Part shown: one piece after another, positions 28,825-41,478 of the stretch
How positions within the stretch are numbered: the first letter of the stretch is position 1
Layout: each line of letters begins with the position of its first letter
Notes under the pieces: generated by a model
Seen by the model: the letters and a program-made list of their open reading frames with translations, nothing else
Told to the model about the DNA's origin: nothing
The model's database searches: none
Made by a program: the position numbers and the translations under genes
DNA from: Anaerolineae bacterium
GTDB taxonomy: Bacteria > Chloroflexota > Anaerolineae > Aggregatilineales > Phototrophicaceae
Length of the DNA: 64,000 nucleotides
NCBI GenBank assembly: GCA_022841825.1
Contig: JALHQT010000003.1
Span: 310,001-374,000 of the forward strand
Direction of reading: 5' to 3'

Positions 28825-29888
28825 TGACGACCGTCCGCATCCCGGCGATGGTCGATCCGCATACGCACCTGCGGGATCTCGACTGGGCGCATAAGGCGAC
28901 CTTCGCCAGCGAGACGGCGGCGGCGGTCGCCGGGGGGTACTGGGCGGTCTTCGATATGCCCAACACGCCGCCCACCACGACCAGCCGTGCGGCGCTCGAT
29001 CTCAAGCTGGCGCGCATGGGCGAGACCGCCGTCTGCGATTGGGGCGTCTATTTCGGTGCGTCGCAGGCGGATAACACGGCGGAGTATGCGCATGTCGCCG
29101 GGACGTGCGGGCTGAAGATCTTCAACAACTCGACGACGGGCGACCTGCTGATCGCCGATCAGTCGCAGCGTGAACAGCACTACGCCGCCTGGGATGCCGC
29201 GCGGATCATCGCCGTACATGCCGAGGACGAGACGGTGCTCGATGTCCTGGCGCTCGTGCGGCAGTTCCGCAAGCGCACGCACTTCCTGCATATCTCGACT
29301 GCGCAGGAGATCGCCTGGCTGCGCGCGGCGAAGGAGGAAGGGCTGCCGATCACCATCGGCGTCTGCCCGCATCACCTGTGGCTGACGCAGGATGACCTGC
29401 CCGCGCTCGGCGCGTTCGGCATCATGAAGCCGGGGCTGAAGACGGCGCGCGACCGCGATGCGCTGTGGGATGCGCTGCAAACGGGTGTCGTCGATGTCGT
29501 GGAGAGCGATCATGCGCCGCACACGCTGGCGGAGAAGGCGAGCGAGCGCCCGCCCTACGGCGTGCCGGGCTTGGAGACGACGCTGCCGCTCCTCCTGACC
29601 GCCGTCCACGAGGGGCGGCTGGCGCTGGAGCGTGTCATCGATCTGGTGGCGCACAACCCGCGCCGCATCTGGTGGCTGGACGCGCCGCCGGACACCTATG
29701 CGCGGGTCGATCTGGACGCCGAGTATGTGATCGACCGCGCGCGGCTGCACAGCGCCTGCGGCTGGTCGCCCTTCGAGGGGCTGCGCGTGCGCGGGCGGGT
29801 GATCGAGACGTGGATACGCGGCGTGCAGGTCTACGATGGCGAGCGTGTGCTTGCCCAGCCCGGCTTCGGGCGGAATCTGTTCGCATGA
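28824..29888 (+). CDS. pyrC: Dihydroorotase
   Basis: A 354-residue amidohydrolase closing carbamoyl-aspartate to dihydroorotate. The metal ligands are in MVDPHTHLRD, KIFNNSTTGD (bridging lysine), IAVHAEDE, HFLHISTAQE, CPHHLWL and VESDHAPHT. A protein of 354 residues is short for class I enzymes, which run to about 420. It starts in the last base of the pyrB stop and its own stop overlaps pyrD by 4 bp, so the operon is tightly coupled to this point. Confidence 0.93.
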   Translation: MTTVRIPAMVDPHTHLRDLDWAHKATFASETAAAVAGGYWAVFDMPNTPPTTTSRAALDLKLARMGETAVCDWGVYFGASQADNTAEYAHVAGTCGLKIFNNSTTGDLLIADQSQREQHYAAWDAARIIAVHAEDETVLDVLALVRQFRKRTHFLHISTAQEIAWLRAAKEEGLPITIGVCPHHLWLTQDDLPALGAFGIMKPGLKTARDRDALWDALQTGVVDVVESDHAPHTLAEKASERPPYGVPGLETTLPLLLTAVHEGRLALERVIDLVAHNPRRIWWLDAPPDTYARVDLDAEYVIDRARLHSACGWSPFEGLRVRGRVIETWIRGVQVYDGERVLAQPGFGRNLFA

Positions 29889-32095
29889 ACGCGCGCCACT
29901 TGTTGCTCGACCTCTACCGCCTGGGCTACGAACGCCTGCTGCGCCCGCTGATCTTCACACGCTCGCCCGAAGCCGCGCACCGCGACGCCATGCGACTGCT
30001 GGCGGCGTTGGATGGGTCGAAGGTGATGTGCGATCTGATGCGAGGGGGACTGAACCGCGGAGGCGCAGAGGACGCGAAGATTATTAAAACGGATGTGAAG
30101 GACAATATGACGGACGCCATTTATGGCGTCCCTATAGAGTCGCCTGGCGTAGGGACGCCATTCATGGCGTCCGCTTCCCACCCTTCCCATCCCCGCTCTC
30201 CCGCTCCGCTCCCTTTGCGTCCTTGCGGTTCAACACATCTTTCTCCGCTAACCCTGGCGGCGGGGTTCGTTAAAGGTAGGGGGTTTGCGGATGAGGACGA
30301 GGCGCTGCGGGCAGTCGAAGCGGGCGAGAACATTATCCCCGGCTGGCGCGCCATGCCCGCGCTGGTCGGCGCGGTTGAGTTCGGCTCGTTCACGCGCTAC
30401 CCGCGCCTGGGCAACTCCGGCGCGATCCTCTGGCGCGACCCGGCGACGCGCTCGACGCAGAACCGCATCGGCTTGCGCAACCCCGGCGCACGCGCCGCCG
30501 CGCGTTTCCTGGCGCGACACAGGGCAGATTTCCCCTGGTATATTCGCTATGGGATCAACATCGCCGTCTCGCCGGGCGTGAGCGACGAAGCGCAGGAGAT
30601 CGCGGAGGTCTACGAGAGCATGAGTCTGTTTCTCGACGCGGGACTGCGTCCGGGCTGGTTCACGCTCAATCTGAGCTGCCCCAACACCGAGGACGATCCC
30701 GAAGGCAACCAGACGGCGGCGCATGCCCGCGCGCTATGCAGCGCCCTGCTGGCGCATCCGGGGTTATCGCGCCATGAACCTCATCCCCCAACCCCCTCTC
30801 CGTATACAGCGAGGGGGAGCGAAGAGATGAGGTCAGATCCCATCCCGCTATGGATCAAGATCGGCCCCGACCTGGGCGCGGAGCAATACGCAGCGCTGAT
30901 GGCGGTCGGCGCGGAGGTCGGCATAGGGGCGATCATCGCCACCAACACGCTGGCGCGGGCAGTGCCTCAAGCCCTCACCCCAAACCCGCTTCCGCTCTGC
31001 ATCCAGCGTCCCGAACGCGGAGTACCGCTGGGAGAGGGACTTCACACGACTCCTCTGGCTCCCCTCTCCCAGGTGTACTCACCGTTTGGGAGAGGGGTTG
31101 GGGGTGAGGGCGTCCCCATCGCAGGCGTCGGCGGCGGTTCTCTCCACATCCACGCGCTGGACGCGGTGCGGCATCTGGCGGCGGCGCGCGAACGCCTGGG
31201 CGCGCAGGTGTGTATCGTCGGCTGCGGCGGCGTGCTGGATGGCGAGTCGGCGCGGGCGCTGCTTGCGGCGGGGGCGGATGCGCTGCAATACTGGTCGGCG
31301 TTGATCTATCGCGGACCGCTCGCCGCCGCCGTTATTCAACGGGAGCTGGATACGATACAAGATGAAGATAACCGCGAAGGCGCAAAGGACGCGAAGAGCG
31401 ATTCATCTCTTCGCGTCCTTCGCGCCTTCGCGGTTAAATTGAAGTGTTCTCAAGGGAGATCGCGGATGGATGACTCGTTAAAGGTCGCGCGGGCGCTGCT
31501 GGAGATCGGCGCGGTCGGCTTTTCGCTCATGCAGCCGATTAAGTTCAAGTCCGGCATCCTCTCGCCGATGTATGTCGATAACCGCCGCCTGCCGTATCAT
31601 CCGGCGCAGTGGCGCGTGGTCATCGAGGCGTTCGCCGCGCTCGTGCGGGATGGCGCATTCGCCTGTGACGTGATTGCGGGGGTGGCGGTTGGCGGCGTGC
31701 CGCACAGCGCGGCGCTCGGCTACCTGACCGGCATCCCCTCGGTCTTCGTGCGCAAGGAGGCGAAGGAGCACGGCACAGGCAGCCGGGTCGAGGGCGGCGC
31801 GGTCGACGGCAAGCGCGTGGTGCTGATCGAGGACATGGTGACGACGGGCGGCAGCAGCCTGGCGGCGGTGGCTGCGCTGCGCGAAGAGGGCGCAATCGTG
31901 ACCGACCTGCTGGCGATCATCAGCTATGATTTCCGCGAGGCGGCGGCGGCGATGTTTGGCGCGGGCATCCTGCTGAATACGCTGACGCGCGTGCCGGTGG
32001 TGCTGGAGGAGGCGCGGGCGAGTGGGCGGCTGAACGAGGCGACCTTCCAGCGGGTGCAGGACTGGTATGCCGATCCGTATGGGTGGAGTGGGTAA
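29885..32095 (+). CDS. pyrD: Dihydroorotate dehydrogenase with in-frame repeat insertions, frame continuing into PyrE
   Basis: One open frame of 736 codons codes for PyrD (to about residue 500) and then, without a stop, for PyrE. PyrD begins with a class-2-like helical segment (LLLDLYRLGYERLLRPLIF). The flavin/orotate parts are LTLAAGFVKGRGF, STQNRIGLRNPGA, LNLSCPNTEDDPEGN, PLWIKIGPDL, IIATNTLA and IVGCGGVLDGESARALL. The catalytic position holds Cys (LSCPN), as in class 1 enzymes. Four repeat elements interrupt it: 30051-30232, 30778-30833, 30971-31111 and 31369-31436. None brings a stop. Without them PyrD would be about 370-380 residues, the normal size. It may yield a long chimera, a processed protein, or PyrD plus separately started PyrE. 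Confidence 0.85.
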   Translation: MNARHLLLDLYRLGYERLLRPLIFTRSPEAAHRDAMRLLAALDGSKVMCDLMRGGLNRGGAEDAKIIKTDVKDNMTDAIYGVPIESPGVGTPFMASASHPSHPRSPAPLPLRPCGSTHLSPLTLAAGFVKGRGFADEDEALRAVEAGENIIPGWRAMPALVGAVEFGSFTRYPRLGNSGAILWRDPATRSTQNRIGLRNPGARAAARFLARHRADFPWYIRYGINIAVSPGVSDEAQEIAEVYESMSLFLDAGLRPGWFTLNLSCPNTEDDPEGNQTAAHARALCSALLAHPGLSRHEPHPPTPSPYTARGSEEMRSDPIPLWIKIGPDLGAEQYAALMAVGAEVGIGAIIATNTLARAVPQALTPNPLPLCIQRPERGVPLGEGLHTTPLAPLSQVYSPFGRGVGGEGVPIAGVGGGSLHIHALDAVRHLAAARERLGAQVCIVGCGGVLDGESARALLAAGADALQYWSALIYRGPLAAAVIQRELDTIQDEDNREGAKDAKSDSSLRVLRAFAVKLKCSQGRSRMDDSLKVARALLEIGAVGFSLMQPIKFKSGILSPMYVDNRRLPYHPAQWRVVIEAFAALVRDGAFACDVIAGVAVGGVPHSAALGYLTGIPSVFVRKEAKEHGTGSRVEGGAVDGKRVVLIEDMVTTGGSSLAAVAALREEGAIVTDLLAIISYDFREAAAAMFGAGILLNTLTRVPVVLEEARASGRLNEATFQRVQDWYADPYGWSG
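30051..30232. repeat. Nested repeat inserted in frame in pyrD (insert 1)
   Basis: The outer arms are TGAACCGCGGAGGCGC at 30051 and GCGTCCTTGCGGTTCA ending at 30232. Inside them sits a facing pair of 24-bp modules, 30112-30135 and 30149-30172. The stretch codes for about 60 residues between PyrD residues near 56 and 116 that have no counterpart in the family. The outer arm family is the same as at 31369-31436. Confidence 0.85.
30778..30833. repeat. 56-bp inverted repeat inserted in frame in pyrD (insert 2)
   Basis: ACCTCATC and GATGAGGT form the ends, with CCCCTC/GAGGGG inside. The CCCCTCTCCGTATAC core matches the level-1 arm at 17321-17352 (reverse strand). It codes for about 19 Pro- and charge-rich residues between ALLAHPGLS and PIPLWIKIG. 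Confidence 0.8.
30971..31111. repeat. 141-bp inverted repeat inserted in frame in pyrD (insert 3)
   Basis: GCCCTCACCCCAA at the left mirrors TTGGGGGTGAGGGC at the right. The left half contains the same sequence, reversed, as 17195-17269 (CTGCATCCAGCGTCCCGAAC). At exactly 47 codons it keeps the frame between IIATNTLARAVPQ and VPIAGVGGG. Confidence 0.85.
31369..31436. repeat. 68-bp near-perfect hairpin at the pyrD-pyrE junction (insert 4)
   Basis: The arms 31369-31398 and 31407-31436 (TAACCGCGAAGGCGC and mirror) match at 29 of 30 positions around an 8-nt loop. It codes the linker between PyrD and PyrE. This is the empty form of the element whose filled form is insert 1. Confidence 0.88.
31466..32095 (+). 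CDS. pyrE: Orotate phosphoribosyltransferase
   Basis: A 209-residue enzyme joining orotate to PRPP to give OMP. The N-terminal substrate part is FKSGILSPMYVDNRRLPY, the flexible catalytic loop VFVRKEAKEHGTG and the PRPP-binding motif VVLIEDMVTTGGSS. ATG 31466 has its own ribosome-binding site, AAGGGAGAT, 7 nt ahead, so PyrE can be made alone. The reading frame is nevertheless open backwards into PyrD, and a PyrD-PyrE fusion is equally readable. The length from this start is normal for the family. Confidence 0.93.
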   Translation: MDDSLKVARALLEIGAVGFSLMQPIKFKSGILSPMYVDNRRLPYHPAQWRVVIEAFAALVRDGAFACDVIAGVAVGGVPHSAALGYLTGIPSVFVRKEAKEHGTGSRVEGGAVDGKRVVLIEDMVTTGGSSLAAVAALREEGAIVTDLLAIISYDFREAAAAMFGAGILLNTLTRVPVVLEEARASGRLNEATFQRVQDWYADPYGWSG

Positions 32096-32209: not shown

Positions 32210-33016
32210 ATGAGCGTAATCGACAAATACAACGCGCGTTCCCGCGCTGCCCATTCGCTGCTCTGCATCGGGCTGGACAGCGATATGGCGCTCGTGCCGG
32301 AACGCTTCCACGCCGATGCAATGCCGCAGTTTGCCTTCAACCGCTGGATGATCGACCAGACCCACGCCAGCGCGGCGGCATACAAGATCAACACCGCTTT
32401 TTACGAGGCGCGCGGTGCGGCGGGCTGGGCGGAACTGGAGGCGACCATCGCCTATCTGCGCGCGGCGCTGCCGGATGTCCTGACGATCTGCGATGCCAAA
32501 CGCGGCGACATCGGCAGCACGAGCGCGGCGTATGCGCGCGCGATCTTCGATCATCTCGGCTTTGACTGCATCACGCTCAACCCCTACCTGGGGCGCGACG
32601 CCCTTGAACCCTTCCTCGAACGGGCGGACAAAGGCTGCATCCTGCTCTGCCGCACCTCCAACCCCGGCTCCGGCGAGCTGCAAAACCTCATGATCGACGG
32701 CACCCCGCTCTGGCAGCATGTGGCACAGCTCGTCGATGGCGAGTGGAACCAGCGACGCAACTGTATGCTGGTCGTCGGCGCGACCTACCCGCGTGAGCTG
32801 CGCGGGCTGCGCGCGCTCCTGCCGGAGATGCCGTTCCTCATCCCCGGCGTCGGGACGCAGGGCGGCGATGTCGAGACGACCGTCCGCGCGGGCATTGACC
32901 AGCAGGGCGGCGGCATCCTCGTCAACGCCTCTCGCAGCATCCTGACGGCACCCGACCCGGCAGCGGTCGCGGAAGCGCTGCGCGCCGAAATCGCGGCAGC
33001 GGCAGGTACACTATGA
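32210..33016 (+). CDS. pyrF: Orotidine-5'-phosphate decarboxylase, type 2
   Basis: A 268-residue enzyme converting OMP to UMP, completing the pathway encoded by the four genes before it. The catalytic Asp-Lys-Asp set is in CDAKRGDIGSTSAAYA (near residues 94-101). LCIGLDSDM and YKINTAFYEARG are typical of type 2 (archaeal/mycobacterial-like) enzymes, as is LVNASRSIL near the end. The start codon follows directly on GGGGGAGGGG from the repeat. The stop overlaps the next gene by 4 bp. Confidence 0.95.
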   Translation: MSVIDKYNARSRAAHSLLCIGLDSDMALVPERFHADAMPQFAFNRWMIDQTHASAAAYKINTAFYEARGAAGWAELEATIAYLRAALPDVLTICDAKRGDIGSTSAAYARAIFDHLGFDCITLNPYLGRDALEPFLERADKGCILLCRTSNPGSGELQNLMIDGTPLWQHVAQLVDGEWNQRRNCMLVVGATYPRELRGLRALLPEMPFLIPGVGTQGGDVETTVRAGIDQQGGGILVNASRSILTAPDPAAVAEALRAEIAAAAGTL

Positions 33017-35213: not shown

Positions 35214-35537
35214 ATGGCTATTCCTGGCACAGACGAACTGCAACTGCTGCATGAACAGATCTGTCAGGCGGTTGGCGATGTCAAACGCATCCAGATTCTG
35301 TACGCGCTGCACGACCAGCCGCGCCATGTGTCGGCGCTGGCAGACCTGCTGGAGATGTCTCAACCGACTGTCTCCCGGCATCTGGCAGTGCTGCGCGAAC
35401 GCGCATTGGTCGTGGCGGAGCGAAACGGCGCGGCGGTGGTCTACCGCCTTGCCGACTCACGCCTGATCGACGTGCTTAATCTGATGCGACAGCTCCTGCG
35501 CGATACTTTGGAACGCCGCGCCAATATGATGAGTTAG
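35214..35537 (+). CDS. ArsR/SmtB-family regulator of the cytochrome/sulfur locus
   Basis: A 107-residue winged-helix protein. The recognition helices lie in VSALADLLEMSQPTVSRHLA, followed by the wing ALVVAERNGAAVVYRLAD. The start ATG 35214 has GGAGG upstream. The only cysteine visible is in EQICQAV, with no CxC metal site, which fits a thiol/persulfide or single-Cys sensor better than an arsenic sensor. The gap before it contains an AT-rich stretch (GTATACAGATATGCGAATAG) that could hold promoter and operator. It is the first gene of the 35-41 kb locus and probably regulates it. Confidence 0.88.
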   Translation: MAIPGTDELQLLHEQICQAVGDVKRIQILYALHDQPRHVSALADLLEMSQPTVSRHLAVLRERALVVAERNGAAVVYRLADSRLIDVLNLMRQLLRDTLERRANMMS

Positions 35538-35590
35538 CAGCTCACCTTCGGCGCGCCACAACTTCGCATTCCTGATGTGGAGTTGTTCTT

Positions 35591-37030
35591 ATGCTGCGAT
35601 CGTTCAAATATATCTGGCTGCTGGGATTGATCGGCACGATCCTGGTGGTGGCGGGCGTGATCGCGCTCGCGCTTTCCCCGCTGCGGGGGGTCGCGCCCGA
35701 TCCCTGGGCAAACGTTCCCCCCGAACGCACGCATGTCGATCATTCCGACTTGATGACGGAGCCTTTCGAGACGGGACCGGAAGTCACCGCCGCCTGCCTC
35801 TCGTGCCACGAAGACGCGGCGCACGAGGTTTCGCGGACGACGCACTGGACATGGCAGAGCGAACCGGTCACGGTCGCCTGGCGCGATGAACCCGTCTCGA
35901 CCGGCAAAGCAAACGTCATCAATAACTTCTGTATCGGCATCCAAAGCAACGAGCCGGACTGCACGCGCTGCCACGCGGGCTACGGCTGGGGTGCGGAAGA
36001 ACCCTTCGATTTCGAGGATCTCTCCAACGTGGACTGCCTGGTCTGCCACGACCAATCGGGCGGCTACGTGAAAGCTGAAGAAGGCTTGCCCGCCGAAGAG
36101 GTCGATCTGCTGGCGGCGGCGCAGAGCGTCGGCTCACCCACGCGCGCCAACTGCGGCGGCTGCCACTTCAACGGCGGCGGCGGCAACGGCGTCAAGCATG
36201 GTGATCTCGACTCCAGCCTGTACTTCCCGTCGGAAAACCTCGACGTGCATATGGGCGGGCTGGACTTCCAGTGCATCGACTGCCACCAGACGCAGGATCA
36301 CCAGATCGCCGGGCGCTCGATCTCGGTCAGCCTTGACGATGCCAATCAGGTCTACTGCACCGACTGCCACGAGACGACGCTGCACAGCGACGAACGGATC
36401 ACCTCGCATGTCGATACGGTCGCCTGCCAGACCTGTCACATCCCAACGGTCGCCGTGCGCGACCGGACGCGCATTCTGTGGGATTGGTCGGCGGCGGGCG
36501 ACCTGGCGCGTGAGAATGTGCCGGGGCAGTATCTTCAGACGCGCGGCGAGTTCATGACCACGCTCGACTATCAGCCGGACTACACCTGGTACAACGGCAC
36601 GGCGCAGCGCTATCTGCTGGGCGACACGATGGACCCGGCGACCCTGACAGTGCTCGATCCGCCGCTGGGCGACCTGGACGACCCGACAGCGTTGATCTTC
36701 CCCTTCAAAATCCACTACGCGCGCCAGCCTTATGACGCCGAGTACAACATCCTGCTCCAGCCGACGACGGCGGGCGAGGGTGGCTACTGGACGACCTTCG
36801 ACTGGAACTCAGCGCTGGCGAGCGGCGCGGAAGCGGCGGGCATCCCGTACAGCGGCAGCTACGGTTTTGCCGAGACAGCGATGTACTGGCCCCTGACGCA
36901 CATGGTGCAGCCTGCGTCGAACGCGCTGACGTGCGCCGACTGCCACAGCGACAACGGGCGAATGGACTGGGAAGCGCTCGGTTACTTCGGCGACCCGCTG
37001 GTCTGGGGCGGACGGGAGGTGGGGCGATGA
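35591..37030 (+). CDS. Octaheme c-type cytochrome (tetrathionate-reductase-like family)
   Basis: A 479-residue exported protein anchored by one N-terminal helix (WLLGLIGTILVVAGVIALAL). It contains exactly eight CxxCH haem sites: CLSCH, CTRCH, CLVCH, CGGCH, CIDCH, CTDCH, CQTCH and CADCH. The size, haem count and spacing fit the octaheme tetrathionate reductase (OTR) family, whose members also reduce nitrite or hydroxylamine in vitro and may have other sulfur roles. It is coupled by a 4-bp overlap to a cytochrome c/b fusion, so electrons probably pass to or from the quinone pool. Confidence 0.9.
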   Translation: MLRSFKYIWLLGLIGTILVVAGVIALALSPLRGVAPDPWANVPPERTHVDHSDLMTEPFETGPEVTAACLSCHEDAAHEVSRTTHWTWQSEPVTVAWRDEPVSTGKANVINNFCIGIQSNEPDCTRCHAGYGWGAEEPFDFEDLSNVDCLVCHDQSGGYVKAEEGLPAEEVDLLAAAQSVGSPTRANCGGCHFNGGGGNGVKHGDLDSSLYFPSENLDVHMGGLDFQCIDCHQTQDHQIAGRSISVSLDDANQVYCTDCHETTLHSDERITSHVDTVACQTCHIPTVAVRDRTRILWDWSAAGDLARENVPGQYLQTRGEFMTTLDYQPDYTWYNGTAQRYLLGDTMDPATLTVLDPPLGDLDDPTALIFPFKIHYARQPYDAEYNILLQPTTAGEGGYWTTFDWNSALASGAEAAGIPYSGSYGFAETAMYWPLTHMVQPASNALTCADCHSDNGRMDWEALGYFGDPLVWGGREVGR

Positions 37031-39669
37031 ACAGGCGCTATACATCTATGCAATTGAACCGCGAAGACACGAAGGACGCGGAGATCAGAAACCATTTTCA
37101 ACACGAAGGCGCGGAGAGGACGACGCATGCGTCGTCCCTACCGCCACGATGGCTGTTCCGTAGGGGCGAGGCGCGCCTCGTCCGCCGTATCGCCATCTCG
37201 ATCCTCACAGGGGGCGGCGTCCTCTCGCTGATGGTCGGCATCCTCCTGCTGGGCGCGGGCGTCACATTCGCCCAGACCAACCCGTCATTCCATCCGCCGA
37301 TTGTGCTGCGCGACGCGGACGGTGCGCTTGTGCAGGAAAGCGGCGCGCCCGCCTCCGCCATGATGACCTGTGGCGACTGCCACGATACCGCCTTCATCAG
37401 CGCCAACAGCAGCCATGCCGATGGCGCGCTGCGTTCGGTGCGCCAGGACGCCGCGCCGTTCGCCGCTTCATCCGGCGGCAGCGTCGAGACGAACTGCTTC
37501 ATGTGCCACATCGCGCAGCCGGACAACGCCGCCCGCCTGGGCGCGCTCGACGCCGGGCAGCCCGAATGGGCGAGCAGCGCCACGCTGCGCGCGACGGGCA
37601 TCGTGACGGATGCCGACGGAAGCTGGTCGTGGAACGCGGCGGCGTTCGCGCCGGATGGCACGGTCGATACGGCGCTGCTCGCGATTGGCGATCCGACCGA
37701 TGCCAACTGTGGGCAGTGTCACGGCACGGTCCACAGTGACGGGCAGATGCCGCTCGTACTCACGGACGGCGAAAGCGGCTGGGAGACGCTGCTGCGTGGG
37801 CAGGTCTTCTCGCCGCAGCGCATCAGCAGCAGCGGGTTGAGCCTGGAAGACAAGAGTACGCTGACGCGCCCCTGGGATGTCCACGCCGAGCGGCTGGTCG
37901 GCTGTACCGACTGCCACTACGCGCTCAACAACCCGGTCTTTGATACGCAGCCGGATCGGACGGGTCCCGATCATCTGCAATTCGACCCGCGTCGGATGGA
38001 CTTCGGCGAATACCTGCACCGCCCGCTGCATCAGTTCGCCAATTCACAAGGTGCGCTGAACTCCGATTTCGGGGGCGCGGCGCGCTCGTGCAGTTCGTGC
38101 CACGAGTCGGTGGCAGCTCACAGTTGGCTGCCGTATGCCGAGCGCCACTTTAGCGCCACGACCTGCGAGACCTGTCATGTGCCGACGCTCTATGCCCCGG
38201 CGCTGGAAAGCGTCGATTGGACGGTCGTCCATCCTGACGGATCGCCACGCATGACGTATCGCGGGACGGACGATGGGGCGACAACTGGATCGCCGGACGG
38301 GACAACAGACGGGTCGTCCCCGACGGGGCTGATCACGGGGTTTACGCCGGTCGTGCTGCCGCGCGTCGGGACGGACGGCGCGACACGCCTGGCACCCTAC
38401 AACGTCATCAGCCGCTGGTACTGGGTGGCTGGCGACGGCACGCCGGTGAGCGAGGAGGTGCTGCGCGCTGGGTGGCTGGTCGATGGTGCTTATGCGCCGG
38501 AGGTGCTGGCAGCATTCGACGCGAACGGCGATGGCGCGTTGAGCGACGCCGAACTGCTCCTCGATACGCCGGAAATGACCGCGGTGATCGCGGACAGACT
38601 GAGCGCGCTCGGCGTCGCCGACCCGCGCGTCATGGGCGATGTGCAGTCCTACGCCATCCATCACAACGTGATCGGCGGCGAGTGGGCGGTGCGCGAATGC
38701 ACGACCTGTCACGCCGACGATTCGCGGATGGCGGCGGCGCTCCCGCTCGGCACGGGGACGCTCGGCGGCGGCGAACTGACGCTGACCGCGAGCGGGCTGC
38801 CGCTCAACGGCGCGCTGGAGCCCGATGGCGATGGGGGCGTTTCGTACCGTCCTCTGCTGGTCGCCGCGCCGCCGCTGACCGCGCCGGTCGATCTCTACAT
38901 CCTCGGTCACAACAGTGTTGATTGGATCAACTGGCTGGGCGCGCTGATGTTCCTGGGTGTCGCTTTCGGGGCGGGCGGGCATGGCTTGCTGCGCATCCTG
39001 GCGAGCCGCCGGCAGCGCGTACATCAGCCGCACGCCGTGACCGAGAAAGTCTATATGTACAGCATCTATGAGCGCGCCTGGCACTGGATGCAAACCGTGA
39101 TGATCTTTGGGCTGCTCTTCACCGGGCTGGTCATCCACAATCCGGAAGCCTTCAGCATGTTCGACTTCCAGGGCGTGGTGCTGGTGCATAACGCGCTGGC
39201 GCTGGTGCTCGTCATCAACGCGGCGTTCGCGCTCGTCTATCACCTGGTCAGCGGCGAAATTCGCCAGTTCCTGCCGCGACCGTATGGCTTCTTCGACCAG
39301 ATGGTGATGCAGGCGAAGTACTACCTGCAAGGCATCTTCCGGGGGGATGCGCATCCGTTCGAGAAGACGCCGGAACGCAAGATGAACCCGCTCCAGCAGG
39401 TGACCTACCTCGCCATTCTGAATGTGCTGCTGCCCTTGCAGATCCTCACGGGCGCGCTGATGTGGGGCGCGCAGCGGCTGCCAGAAGTGACGGCGCAGTT
39501 GGGCGGGCTGGGCTTCCTCGCGCCGTTCCATACGCTGATCGCCTGGGCATTCGCCACGTTCATCGTCCTGCATGTCTATCTGACGACGACCGGTCACACG
39601 CCCGTCGCCAACATTAAGGCGATGATGATGGGCTGGGAAGATACTGAACCGAAGGAGATCACCTCATGA
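37027..39669 (+). CDS. Heptaheme cytochrome c fused to membrane cytochrome b
   Basis: An 880-residue protein. Seven CxxCH sites follow a signal-anchor helix (SLMVGILLLGAGVTFAQ): CGDCH, CFMCH, CGQCH, CTDCH, CSSCH, CETCH and CTTCH. An EF-hand-like loop DANGDGALSDAE lies near residue 497. From about residue 625 a helix (WINWLGALMFLGVAFGAG) and a cytochrome b561-like unit follow, with haem-b histidine candidates in AWHWMQ, LVHNAL, VYHLVSG, FHTLIAW and VLHVYL. Residues 9-53 are coded by repeat DNA. It likely links the quinol pool to the octaheme protein outside the membrane. The fusion is unusual. Confidence 0.88.
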   Translation: MNRRYTSMQLNREDTKDAEIRNHFQHEGAERTTHASSLPPRWLFRRGEARLVRRIAISILTGGGVLSLMVGILLLGAGVTFAQTNPSFHPPIVLRDADGALVQESGAPASAMMTCGDCHDTAFISANSSHADGALRSVRQDAAPFAASSGGSVETNCFMCHIAQPDNAARLGALDAGQPEWASSATLRATGIVTDADGSWSWNAAAFAPDGTVDTALLAIGDPTDANCGQCHGTVHSDGQMPLVLTDGESGWETLLRGQVFSPQRISSSGLSLEDKSTLTRPWDVHAERLVGCTDCHYALNNPVFDTQPDRTGPDHLQFDPRRMDFGEYLHRPLHQFANSQGALNSDFGGAARSCSSCHESVAAHSWLPYAERHFSATTCETCHVPTLYAPALESVDWTVVHPDGSPRMTYRGTDDGATTGSPDGTTDGSSPTGLITGFTPVVLPRVGTDGATRLAPYNVISRWYWVAGDGTPVSEEVLRAGWLVDGAYAPEVLAAFDANGDGALSDAELLLDTPEMTAVIADRLSALGVADPRVMGDVQSYAIHHNVIGGEWAVRECTTCHADDSRMAAALPLGTGTLGGGELTLTASGLPLNGALEPDGDGGVSYRPLLVAAPPLTAPVDLYILGHNSVDWINWLGALMFLGVAFGAGGHGLLRILASRRQRVHQPHAVTEKVYMYSIYERAWHWMQTVMIFGLLFTGLVIHNPEAFSMFDFQGVVLVHNALALVLVINAAFALVYHLVSGEIRQFLPRPYGFFDQMVMQAKYYLQGIFRGDAHPFEKTPERKMNPLQQVTYLAILNVLLPLQILTGALMWGAQRLPEVTAQLGGLGFLAPFHTLIAWAFATFIVLHVYLTTTGHTPVANIKAMMMGWEDTEPKEITS
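37055..37183. repeat. Repeat block forming the coding N-terminus of the heptaheme cytochrome
   Basis: It consists of a left arm of the AACCGCGAAG family (37055-37083), a second fragment ACACGAAGGCGCGGAG (37101-37116) and a facing pair of 24-bp modules at 37118-37141 and 37160-37183 with an 18-bp spacer. All are translated between the start codon and the signal-anchor helix. Confidence 0.85.
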
Positions 39670-40232
39670 CCACGATGACACGAAACCTGCCGCGCGCAGG
39701 TGCCGGAACCCGCGTCGCGCGGGCGGAAAAACCGTATGTTCACCCTTATGCTGCGGGCATCCTGCTCGGAATCGTCCTCTTCCTGGCGTTTTTCATCACG
39801 GGCAACGGCTTGGGCGCGTCGGGCGGCATGAACCGCCTGCTGGTCGCGGCGCAGGATGTGCTGATGCCCACCCACATTGATCGCGTGCCGTACCTGCTCG
39901 ACATGGCGGGCGGCGACCGCAACCCCCTCGATAGCTGGGTCGTCTTCATCAGCATCGGCACGGTGCTGGGCGGCGCAGTCAGCGGCTGGCAGCACGGGCG
40001 CACGAAGCTTGAGATCAACAAAGGACCCCAGATTTCTAACCGCACACGCCTGTTGATGGCGTTCGTCGGCGGCGGGCTGATGGGCTATGGCGCGCGGCTG
40101 GCGCGCGGCTGCACAAGCGGGCAGGCACTCAGCGGCGGGGCGACGCTCTCGGTCGGTTCGTGGGTGTTCATGTTCGCCGTCTTCGCGGGCGGTTATCTGG
40201 TGGCGTACTTCGTGCGCCGCCTGTGGAATTAG
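39666..40232 (+). CDS. YeeE/YedE-family sulfur transport protein, half-size
   Basis: A 188-residue membrane protein with about five helices. The conserved cysteine segment is ARGCTSGQALSGGA (near residue 148), as in YeeE/YedE transporters that pass thiosulfate by contact with reactive cysteines. It has one such segment, so it is half of a full-length YeeE and probably pairs with the next gene product. It overlaps the cytochrome fusion stop by 4 bp, which ties transport to the electron-transfer proteins. Confidence 0.9.
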   Translation: MTTMTRNLPRAGAGTRVARAEKPYVHPYAAGILLGIVLFLAFFITGNGLGASGGMNRLLVAAQDVLMPTHIDRVPYLLDMAGGDRNPLDSWVVFISIGTVLGGAVSGWQHGRTKLEINKGPQISNRTRLLMAFVGGGLMGYGARLARGCTSGQALSGGATLSVGSWVFMFAVFAGGYLVAYFVRRLWN

Positions 40233-40242
40233 GAGGGCGATC

Positions 40243-41478
40243 ATGTCCCCATTCCCACTTCCGATTGACACGCTGCTCGGTCACTGGCAGTCGTACATCG
40301 TCTACGTGATCATCGGCTTCGGCTTCGGTTACGTGCTGGAGATCGCGGGCTTTGGCAAATCGACCAAACTGGCGGCACAGTTCTATCTCAAAGAGATGAC
40401 CGTGCTGAAGGTCATGTTCACCGCCATCATCGTGGCAGCGGTGCTGATCTTCCTGGCATCGGCGCTCGGCTTGCTCGATTACAGCCTGATTTGGGTCAAC
40501 CCGACCTATCTGTGGCCCGGCATCGTCGGCGGGCTGGTGATGGGCGTTGGCTTCATCGTGGGCGGCTTCTGCCCTGGTACCTCGCTCGTCTCCGCCGCGA
40601 CGCTCAAGATCGACGGTTTCGTTTTCGTCCTGGGCGCGTTCTTTGGCATCTTCGCCTTCGGCGAGACGGTCAGCCTGTTTGAAGACTGGTGGTACTCGTC
40701 CTACATGGGGCGCTTCACGCTTCAGCAGTTCTTCGGCGTGGACGCGGGTGTGGTCGTGCTGGGCGTCGTGCTGATGGCGCTGGCGGCGTTCGCCTTCGCC
40801 GAATGGAGCGAACGGACGTTTGGCAAAGGCGCGGTGGGTAAGCAGCCGCGCTGGCGGTTGGGCGCGGCGCTAGTGCTGGTCGCGCTGGCAGTCGTCACGA
40901 TCATCCTCGGTCAGCCGACCAATGCCGACCGGATGGCACGCCTGGAGAGCATGCAGAACGACATCCTGAACGCGCGCGCGGTGCAGATTCACCCCGCCGA
41001 GCTGTTGTCCTATCTGAATAATCGACAGGTGGTGCCGTACGTGATCGACGTGCGCGGCGAAGCGGATTACAACGCCTTTCATCTGCCGGGGGCACATTAC
41101 GTGCCGCTCGACGAGGTGCTGACTCATGCCGAGGTGCTGCAATTGCAGCCGCGCAACACGCTGTTTGTCGTCATGAGCAACGACGAGGCAGCGGCAACGC
41201 AGGCATGGCGTATTCTGAACGCCGAGGGCATCGCTAACCTCTACCTGTTGGAGGGCGGCGTCAACCGCTGGCTCGACACCTTCGCGGATGCGGAGTTCCA
41301 GGCGGCATACCGCGTGCGGGCGGGCGGCGATGACCAACTGGCGTATGCTTTCCCGGCGGCGCTGGGCGCGCGCTACGACGCGGCAGACCCGAACCCGGCG
41401 GCGTTTGCCGGGCTGGAGTACACGCCGAAGGTGACTTTGAGTGTCGGGCGTGGCGCAACCGGCGGCGGCTGTGGGTGA
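40243..41478 (+). CDS. YeeE/YedE transporter fused to a Cys-less rhodanese domain with C-terminal GGGCG
   Basis: A 411-residue protein starting at ATG 40243 after a full AGGAGG site. Residues 1-220 are YeeE-like helices with the reactive segment GGFCPGTSLVSAAT. Residues 245-345 form a rhodanese fold (VVPYVIDVRGEADYNAFHLPGA to LYLLEGGVNRWLD). The expected catalytic loop reads VMSNDEAAAT, with no cysteine. The chain ends GRGATGGGCG, with Cys one residue from the end, resembling the sulfur-carrying GGCGG arm of SoxY. This suggests a tethered sulfur carrier rather than a sulfurtransferase. The arm function is inference. Confidence 0.88.
   Translation: MSPFPLPIDTLLGHWQSYIVYVIIGFGFGYVLEIAGFGKSTKLAAQFYLKEMTVLKVMFTAIIVAAVLIFLASALGLLDYSLIWVNPTYLWPGIVGGLVMGVGFIVGGFCPGTSLVSAATLKIDGFVFVLGAFFGIFAFGETVSLFEDWWYSSYMGRFTLQQFFGVDAGVVVLGVVLMALAAFAFAEWSERTFGKGAVGKQPRWRLGAALVLVALAVVTIILGQPTNADRMARLESMQNDILNARAVQIHPAELLSYLNNRQVVPYVIDVRGEADYNAFHLPGAHYVPLDEVLTHAEVLQLQPRNTLFVVMSNDEAAATQAWRILNAEGIANLYLLEGGVNRWLDTFADAEFQAAYRVRAGGDDQLAYAFPAALGARYDAADPNPAAFAGLEYTPKVTLSVGRGATGGGCG

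Follow-up and report, generated by a model that had tools for sequence, protein, structure and literature searches.

A gene cluster joining an OTR-family octaheme cytochrome to a split YeeE transporter with a C-terminal Cys/TGA tail in Anaerolineae: a possible sulfur reduction-and-import module

To our knowledge, the natural substrate of the octaheme cytochrome OTR is unsettled despite a crystal structure. In the bigR operon, a BigR-type ArsR regulator accompanies a split YeeE. Other described relatives of the system reported here are an OTR with a cytochrome b in Ignavibacteriae Ch128a (PMC7509429), OTR in a few Anaerolineae bins (PMC7887784), and, in the accessible text of PMC11582611, the split YeeE pair PmpA/PmpB as well as SoxT1A/SoxT1B with ArsR repressors. 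We analyzed a 64,000-nucleotide stretch from an Anaerolineae bacterium (the window; G000:C3:310001-374000, contig JALHQT010000003.1, from a 5.91 Mb genome in 21 contigs), in which five genes at window positions 35214-41478, called the module below, place an OTR-family cytochrome next to a YeeE-type transporter. OTR, the OTR-cytochrome b pair and split YeeE are already known; what appears to be new is the coupling of the first two to a split YeeE with a GG[C/U]G tail, in which U denotes TGA read as putative selenocysteine (Sec). A reading made from the letters alone (the sequence-only reading) had not recognized the combination as a described system. This holds for the OTR-YeeE coupling, since neither a link between OTR and YeeE-rhodanese nor a GGUG tail came up in the open-licence literature, as far as its text was accessible; it does not hold for the OTR-cytochrome b pair, which is found in Ignavibacteriae (PMC7509429) and Photobacterium.

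All five genes lie on the + strand. They encode an ArsR/SmtB-type regulator of 107 amino acids (aa; 35214-35537), an octaheme cytochrome c of OTR type A with an N-terminal hydrophobic anchor (479 aa; 35591-37030), a heptaheme cytochrome c-cytochrome b fusion (880 aa; 37027-39669), a half-size, PmpA-like YeeE corresponding to the C-terminal half (188 aa; 39666-40232), and a protein that joins a PmpB-like N-terminal YeeE half to a degenerate rhodanese domain and a Gly-Gly-Cys-Gly tail (YeeE-rhodanese, 411 aa; 40243-41478). A 53-bp gap separates the ArsR and octaheme genes, 4-bp ATGA overlaps join the octaheme gene to the heptaheme-cytochrome b gene and the latter to the half YeeE gene (GGAG lying upstream of this second overlap), and the last gene begins after a gap of 10 bp, its start preceded by AGGAGG. 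The tight five-gene string proposed in the sequence-only reading was thereby recovered with its families and coordinates, as were its close junctions and its heme counts (eight and seven CXXCH motifs, with the cytochrome b fusion identified by PF01292); the conserved C-terminal GGCG and the loss of the catalytic rhodanese cysteine had not been mentioned there.

Distribution of the module was analyzed in a phylum sample of 400 genomes and a class sample of 396 genomes, the latter containing all 16 OTR-positive genomes of the former, and the counts overlap; the 15 module loci fetched from the phylum sample belong to genomes also in the class sample. The class searches used limits of E 1e-60 for OTR and E 1e-30 for YeeE-rhodanese, with no more than four candidates scored per genome. 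Every listed OTR place above the cut-off was fetched, along with five sub-cut-off places, of which the class sample gave four and the phylum sample one, and scored with profiles from the first module copies; two YeeE-rhodanese places (G501:C73 and G503:C354) were not among the fetched loci. Among genomes, those of other phyla were covered by a peptide-word scan of named contigs, which is sensitive to close relatives only. By score to the module profile, OTR fell into type A (586-959 bits) and type B (409-488 bits, 10 loci), the line at 580 bits being drawn after the scores were known and with a profile built from module copies; one OTR locus above the cut-off (L132) belongs to neither type. 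Rows entered the alignments at minimum scores of 400 bits for YeeE-rhodanese, 200 for half YeeE, 900 for heptaheme-cytochrome b, 340 or 580 for OTR and 100 for ArsR, which excluded, among others, a decayed copy in genome G096 (L058), where fragments of three module genes lie side by side with the tail end intact.

Among named genome contigs, the protein search revealed three Anaerolineae loci, two with all five genes in the same order (L002 and L003) and one whose stretch begins inside the heptaheme gene and contains both YeeE genes (L004). In the phylum sample, OTR above the cut-off occurred in 16 of 400 genomes and YeeE-rhodanese (E <1e-40) in the same 16, all of which (the window's own and the 15 fetched loci) carry the five genes together; the ArsR gene of G184 is on the opposite side and strand, and the contig end truncates the last gene of G377. 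OTR above the cut-off was present in 80 and YeeE-rhodanese in 70 of the 396 class genomes, with type A OTR in 76, the window's own genome included. Type A OTR accompanied YeeE-rhodanese in 69 of these 70 genomes; the exception, G673, apparently the genome of L004, has no type A OTR, and its contig starts within the heptaheme gene. Among the 75 type A loci outside the window, heptaheme-cytochrome b was found in 72, half YeeE in 65 and YeeE-rhodanese in 62. The last was present in all 62 loci with at least 4.4 kb after OTR, and the 13 loci lacking it all stop within 3.7 kb past OTR. Strand and order were identical in 61 of 61 loci holding all four structural genes. An ArsR match lay somewhere in the stretch at 54 of the 75 loci, a few on the other strand, so that ArsR, listed as a member in the sequence-only reading, is a frequent partner and not a constant one. 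Judged by these arrangements, the gene set is a linked unit and not a chance grouping; the adjoining fragments in the decayed L058 copy also speak for the module. The YeeE and cytochrome genes, whose rare co-occurrence would have spoken against a joint system, do occur together, and the proposed sulfur redox and transport unit is partly supported, with its linkage as the part that stands. Searches of 72,556 plasmid records found OTR in five (four Paracoccus and one Photobacterium) and no YeeE-rhodanese match over 80% of its length, with three partial matches.

The octaheme protein scored 553.7 bits against TIGR04315 (octaheme_Shew; cut-off 375, profile 2-440) and aligned nearly full length with the Shewanella oneidensis OTR (PDB 1SP3, E 6.9e-144), which it resembles over the whole chain, with eight hemes and an aligned lysine and cysteine. 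On these alignments it is a true OTR-family member. The 18-row heme-motif alignment, from which L049 (G106, OTR under the cut-off) was left out, contained eight CXXCH and no CXXCK in every row; among type A rows, 74 of 76 had eight CXXCH, the other two most likely being L133 and L134, which are cut by contig ends. Cys114 (codon 35930-35932), aligned to 1SP3 chain position 64, was kept in 75 of 75 type A copies reaching that position, and Lys202 (codon 36194-36196), aligned to chain position 153, in 76 of 76. In Shewanella OTR, Lys153 is the distal ligand of the active-site heme. An active site clearly of nitrite-reductase type, which the sequence-only reading had named as evidence against its proposal, was not observed: with Cys114 and Lys202 kept, CXXCK absent and a distinct NrfA-family gene elsewhere in the window's own genome, a nitrite-reductase assignment was weakened. 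Type A OTR may act as a tetrathionate reductase. Type B OTR had a short cytochrome b beside it in 7 of 10 loci and no YeeE in any of the 10, only three of which extend >4 kb downstream. In one type B locus (L071:9510-11518), a ferredoxin-like protein and one resembling NrfD/PsrC (by eye) take the place of cytochrome b after OTR. L132:5142-9551 holds a 1469-aa open reading frame (ORF) with 22 CXXCH and two OTR-like stretches, adjoining an ORF with 10 CXXCH.

In the fusion protein, PF01292 covers residues 678-867 (39058-39627, a cytochrome b561/PhsC-like membrane domain) after a CXXCH-rich domain, and the cytochrome b domain scored 131 bits against the thiosulfate reductase cytochrome b PRK15006, below the cut-off of 204. 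Seven CXXCH were found in 62 of 67 aligned copies, and His686, His721, His835 and His849, which we take to be candidate b-heme ligands, are conserved in the cytochrome b domain. Hydrophobicity and charge (Lys/Arg 20.4 in even loops vs 4.3 in odd) would place the heptaheme domain outside the cell. This domain also has an EF-hand-like loop (38518-38553, by eye), with D498 and E509 in 67 of 67 rows, which is a possible calcium site. Described OTR-cytochrome b pairs have the same kind of cytochrome b next to OTR as the module does, whereas the module adds the heptaheme domain to it and links it to split YeeE, rhodanese and tail. The Photobacterium locus (L060) has a 207-aa cytochrome b 3 bp after OTR and, within ~8 kb, no match to the heptaheme or YeeE profiles. 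On a Paracoccus ferrooxidans plasmid (L059), OTR comes directly after a cluster of suf genes, and neither the cytochrome b nor the YeeE profiles matched within ~8 kb.

The transporter is encoded as an N-half and a C-half in two genes with a single conserved cysteine each (Cys110 and Cys149). The half YeeE matched PF04143 at 84 bits over profile 174-309 (C-half), and Cys149 (40110-40112) was present in 69 of 69 rows; YeeE-rhodanese matched PF04143 over profile 10-201 (N-half) in addition to PF00581, and its residue 110 (40570-40572) was Cys in 65 and TGA in three of 68 rows. The two halves are predicted to form one YeeE-type importer, in which Cys110 would be the counterpart of TsuA Cys91 (from the accessible text of PMC11582611). 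The PmpA/PmpB pair in that source likewise consists of separately encoded N- and C-halves, each with one conserved Cys, whereas in the module both halves are longer, the N-half is fused to the degenerate rhodanese and the Cys/Sec tail, and cytochromes are part of the operon. SoxT1A/SoxT1B with SoxR/sHdrR (PMC11582611, same part) resemble the module in combining a YeeE-type importer, external sulfur chemistry and an ArsR repressor; they differ in their full-length YeeE, in Sox enzymes in place of OTR and in a separate SoxY carrier.

The fusion of YeeE and rhodanese domains, claimed in the sequence-only reading, was confirmed by both Pfam families, but the rhodanese is degenerate: its domain (40993-41274, with a loop of S/G-N-D-E type) had Ser (57), Gly (9) or Asp (1) at the catalytic position and Cys in none of the 67 copies reaching it among 68 rows. 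All 66 complete copies end in GG[C/U]G, 61 with Cys and five with TGA; in the window the tail is GGGCG (41461-41475; Cys410 codon 41470-41472). The working group is probably the C-terminal Cys/Sec tail. Six hydrophobic segments lie in YeeE-rhodanese, and taking its Lys/Arg-rich loop 182-203 as inside puts the rhodanese and tail probably outside the cell. SoxY carries a GGC motif on a swinging arm (PMC11237559, in the part available), and the module tail is like that arm in its form, a mobile C-terminal Gly-Gly-Cys, whereas the module arm sits on a transporter, lacks a SoxY domain and can have TGA as its codon; the Pfam scan of YeeE-rhodanese found no SoxY family, and just the end, which resembles the C-terminal GGCGG arm of SoxY, is shared. 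A comparable arrangement is seen in L003, which contains a separate rhodanese with an N-terminal anchor (by eye) and 27% identity, and another at L151 in the window's own genome, described below.

TGA at the tail codon occurred in L072, L083, L086, L087 and L093, with a Gly codon next and then the stop, and three of these five copies also have TGA at residue 110. Across the 68 rows, in-frame TGA was confined to positions 110 and 410, apart from one in L089 that precedes the start. A SECIS-like hairpin of 6-7 bp with a G-first loop lay 12-14 nt after the TGA in 8 of 8 cases. At residue 410 it was present in 5/5 TGA vs 1/60 Cys copies, and at residue 110 in 3/3 TGA vs 2/64 Cys copies; the Fisher values of 7e-7 and 2e-4 overstate the evidence, because the hairpin definition was fixed after the TGA copies had been examined and the five copies make up one clade. 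Stem changes in the 410 hairpin were partly compensated (C-G to A-T). SelB and the selenocysteine tRNA (tRNA-Sec) were sought in 40 genomes, which showed SelB above the cut-off in 33 and tRNA-Sec above the Rfam cut-off in 38. Among the five tail-TGA genomes, four contain tRNA-Sec of at least 59 bits (~95 nt) and three SelB above the cut-off: G540, G682 and G608 have both, and G571 tRNA-Sec only. The fifth, G502 (87% complete, 690 contigs), has no SelB above the cut-off and an 88-nt tRNA-Sec match of 47.1 bits, against an Rfam cut-off of 47. The window's own tail codon is Cys (TGT), though both SelB (327.5 bits) and tRNA-Sec (74.7 bits) are present in its genome. By sequence, the evidence is good but not final that YeeE-rhodanese is a hitherto undescribed selenoprotein family.

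The available table of PMC13188914 lists known Sec families that include YeeE with GUxSG, rhodanese forms 1-5 and OTR. The GUxSG motif fits, by eye, the half-YeeE Cys149 site GCTSG, which was never TGA here (0/69), and the two TGA sites of the module, GG[F/Y]U-P and the C-terminal GGUG, were not met among the selenoprotein motifs of that source as far as it was accessible. Five other loci (L144-L148) have a stand-alone PmpB-like half YeeE in which TGA replaces the pore Cys (G-Y/F-U-P-G-T-C). Minimum-energy folds show a hairpin after the TGA in 4/5, and a PmpA-like half of Cys type lies on the same stretch; these are apparently further half-YeeE selenoproteins.

In OTR, TGA at the Cys114 position was found in two type B genes (L068 and L070, both from genomes of one genus), each with a 7-bp hairpin 13 nt downstream, for which there were just two Cys controls (L064 and L065), and with SelB and tRNA-Sec in both genomes. 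Sec in the OTR family is already known, since PMC13188914 has an entry for such a selenoprotein that gives no motif, and a Cys114-equivalent position for it was not met in the accessible literature. Cys/Sec exchange at this position would mark a reactive thiol, so that S-S chemistry would fit better than nitrite reduction. A third type B gene (L077, G650:C257) has TGA in place of the first Cys in a heme motif; Sec was rejected here in favor of probable error or decay, because G650 has no SelB above the cut-off and only an 87-nt tRNA-Sec match of 50.6 bits, and such short matches also accompany true tRNA-Sec in other genomes.

The regulator matched HTH_5 (54 bits) and NF033788 (77.7 bits) and stayed under the cut-offs of both the TsoR (69 bits, cut-off 115) and BigR (36.6 bits, cut-off 155) equivalogs. 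Cys17 (35262-35264), the single cysteine of the window's copy, occurred in 55 of 55 aligned copies and was the single Cys in 45. Since only Cys17 is invariant, the module regulator lacks the cysteine pair of the BigR/SoxR type. In contrast to BigR beside its split YeeE, it is often and not always present, conserves Cys17 and misses the BigR cut-off.

From the observed gene set, its conservation, its cysteines and the Cys/TGA exchange, we infer a substrate, a direction, a tail location, a selenocysteine reading and a hand-over as follows, with an even chance in our estimate that the gene set is a respiratory sulfur reduction-and-import module. In the fusion (37027-39669), menaquinol would reduce the cytochrome b domain, and the extracellular heptaheme domain would pass electrons to the octaheme OTR. 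Through its Lys-ligated heme and the Cys114 thiol, OTR would split an S-S bond in a sulfur compound outside the cell, the likeliest being a polythionate of the tetrathionate type. The mobile GG-Cys/Sec-G tail may then capture the product, thiosulfate or sulfane sulfur, in protein-bound form and deliver it to the pore cysteines, Cys110 of YeeE-rhodanese and Cys149 of half YeeE, and ArsR, where present, may sense imported sulfur through Cys17. Menaquinol can drive tetrathionate reduction, and menaquinone hardly its formation; quinol-driven reduction is favored because of these energetics and because the cytochrome b is nearest to PhsC, albeit below the cut-off. The TGA at the OTR Cys114 position, with its hairpin in two type B genes, points to thiol chemistry at this step. 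Elsewhere in the same genome (L151, G000:C6 ~225644, beside tRNA-Cys), a rhodanese-like protein with a signal-like N-terminus and an apparent catalytic Cys, both judged by eye, ends 3 bp before a full-length YeeE, and we counted this arrangement as support for the module reading. We give a more specific version less than even odds: heme enzyme and importer would work as one machine, in which a swinging Cys/Sec tail borne by the transporter collects sulfur outside the cell, in or close to the OTR active site, and passes it to the pore, coupling quinol-driven S-S cleavage to uptake, with YeeE-rhodanese as a new selenoprotein family and OTR position 64 as a catalytic thiol.

A number of observations weigh against this reading. 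At the gene level, one locus (L095) has the order half YeeE, YeeE-rhodanese, OTR and no heptaheme-cytochrome b gene, 21 of the 75 type A stretches have no ArsR match, the division of OTR into types was post hoc, and the module is patchy, with both sampled genus mates of the window's own genome lacking OTR. In the enzyme, Asp150 of Shewanella OTR (1SP3) is Asn in the window, and of the 76 type A copies 54 share this Asn and 22 keep the Asp; nitrite and hydroxylamine are further in vitro substrates of Shewanella OTR (PMC4484225, in its accessible part). The margin for an external tail is small (Lys/Arg 9.1 in odd vs 6.6 in even loops, 5.0 of the 6.6 in the C-terminal part), and AlphaFold models from 4-row alignments had mean pLDDT (predicted local distance difference test) scores of 49.4 for YeeE-rhodanese and 36.9 for heptaheme-cytochrome b, unusable for fold searches, with only rhodanese residues 241-350 of the former reaching block means of 52-83. 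A quick tree groups the five tail-TGA copies in a single clade, with one change each for 410 and 110, and two of their five genomes have no SelB above the cut-off. TusA was rejected as the cytoplasmic sulfur acceptor, as the window's own genome gave no TusA match and a control search found TusA in 11 of 14.

Among other explanations, the one that survives best, though we consider it unlikely, is an oxidative, SoxAX-like loading, in which OTR would couple thiosulfate or sulfane sulfur onto the Cys/Sec tail, electrons would leave via the heptaheme domain to quinone or an external acceptor, and the loaded tail would feed the importer. The tetrathionate/thiosulfate couple lies far above menaquinone, which makes oxidation to quinone uphill, and the closest match of the cytochrome b, albeit under the cut-off, is a thiosulfate reductase subunit. 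The resemblance of the tail to the SoxY arm (PMC11237559, same part) and the Cys/TGA exchange at the OTR cysteine in type B paralogues would suit such loading; YeeE-rhodanese has no SoxY domain, and the genome was not searched for Sox genes.

Next, and improbable in our judgment, is a tail that acts as a reductant: heme electrons would keep its Cys/Sec reduced for disulfides or S species at the importer mouth, in an extracellular thiol-reducing, sulfur-scavenging system that is not energy-conserving. Thioredoxin reductase ends in GCUG, and the penultimate Cys/TGA on a Gly-rich end in all 66 complete copies is consistent with such a role, but the module tail has no second Cys beside it, and we know of no heme-to-selenol step of this type.

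Of still lower standing is the reading of the cytochrome pair as a nitrite/hydroxylamine reductase or detoxifier, with YeeE delivering sulfur for a different use, such as protection or assimilation, within one regulon. Reduction of both compounds by OTR in vitro (PMC4484225, part accessible) speaks for it; the distinct NrfA-family gene of the window's own genome, the near-absolute linkage of type A OTR to YeeE and tail, and the type B OTR without YeeE in 10 loci (three with >4 kb downstream) make it doubtful. Handling of selenium oxyanions or another chalcogen, suggested by YeeE kin that include YedE selenium transporters (half YeeE vs YedE/FdhT 38 bits, far under the cut-off of 350) and by SelB and tRNA-Sec in the window's own genome, is very improbable, as some module genomes (among them G708, G683 and G487) have neither SelB above the cut-off nor tRNA-Sec of at least 59 bits, and the OTR and cytochrome b kin indicate sulfur.

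Around the module, the commonest flanking family, which resembles an ABC ATPase, occurred in only 13 of 78 loci; a sixth conserved gene was rejected, and the module seems to end at its borders because no outside family exceeds this count. A short dispersed repeat lies at 37057-37079 (+), where the heptaheme gene codes for its N-terminal part, with further copies at 31370-31392 (+) and 31413-31435 (-), inside the ORF 29465-32095 (0-3 mismatches, none expected by chance); the heptaheme gene of L002 is without the repeat-bearing insert. By eye, this 876-aa ORF is PyrD-like and then PyrE-like, with the repeat in between, and a PyrF-like gene follows at 32210-33016.

An operon tying one OTR clade to a sulfur importer, together with Cys/TGA exchange at the OTR thiol, makes the natural role of OTR testable, and the one-machine reading, if true, would establish OTR as essentially an S-S enzyme. 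The GG[C/U]G tail, read in this way, would place a carrier of sulfur or selenol on the transporter itself, and the known selenoprotein families would grow by one. With type A OTR in 76 of the 396 class genomes, the module bears on the use of sulfur intermediates by mostly uncultured bacteria.

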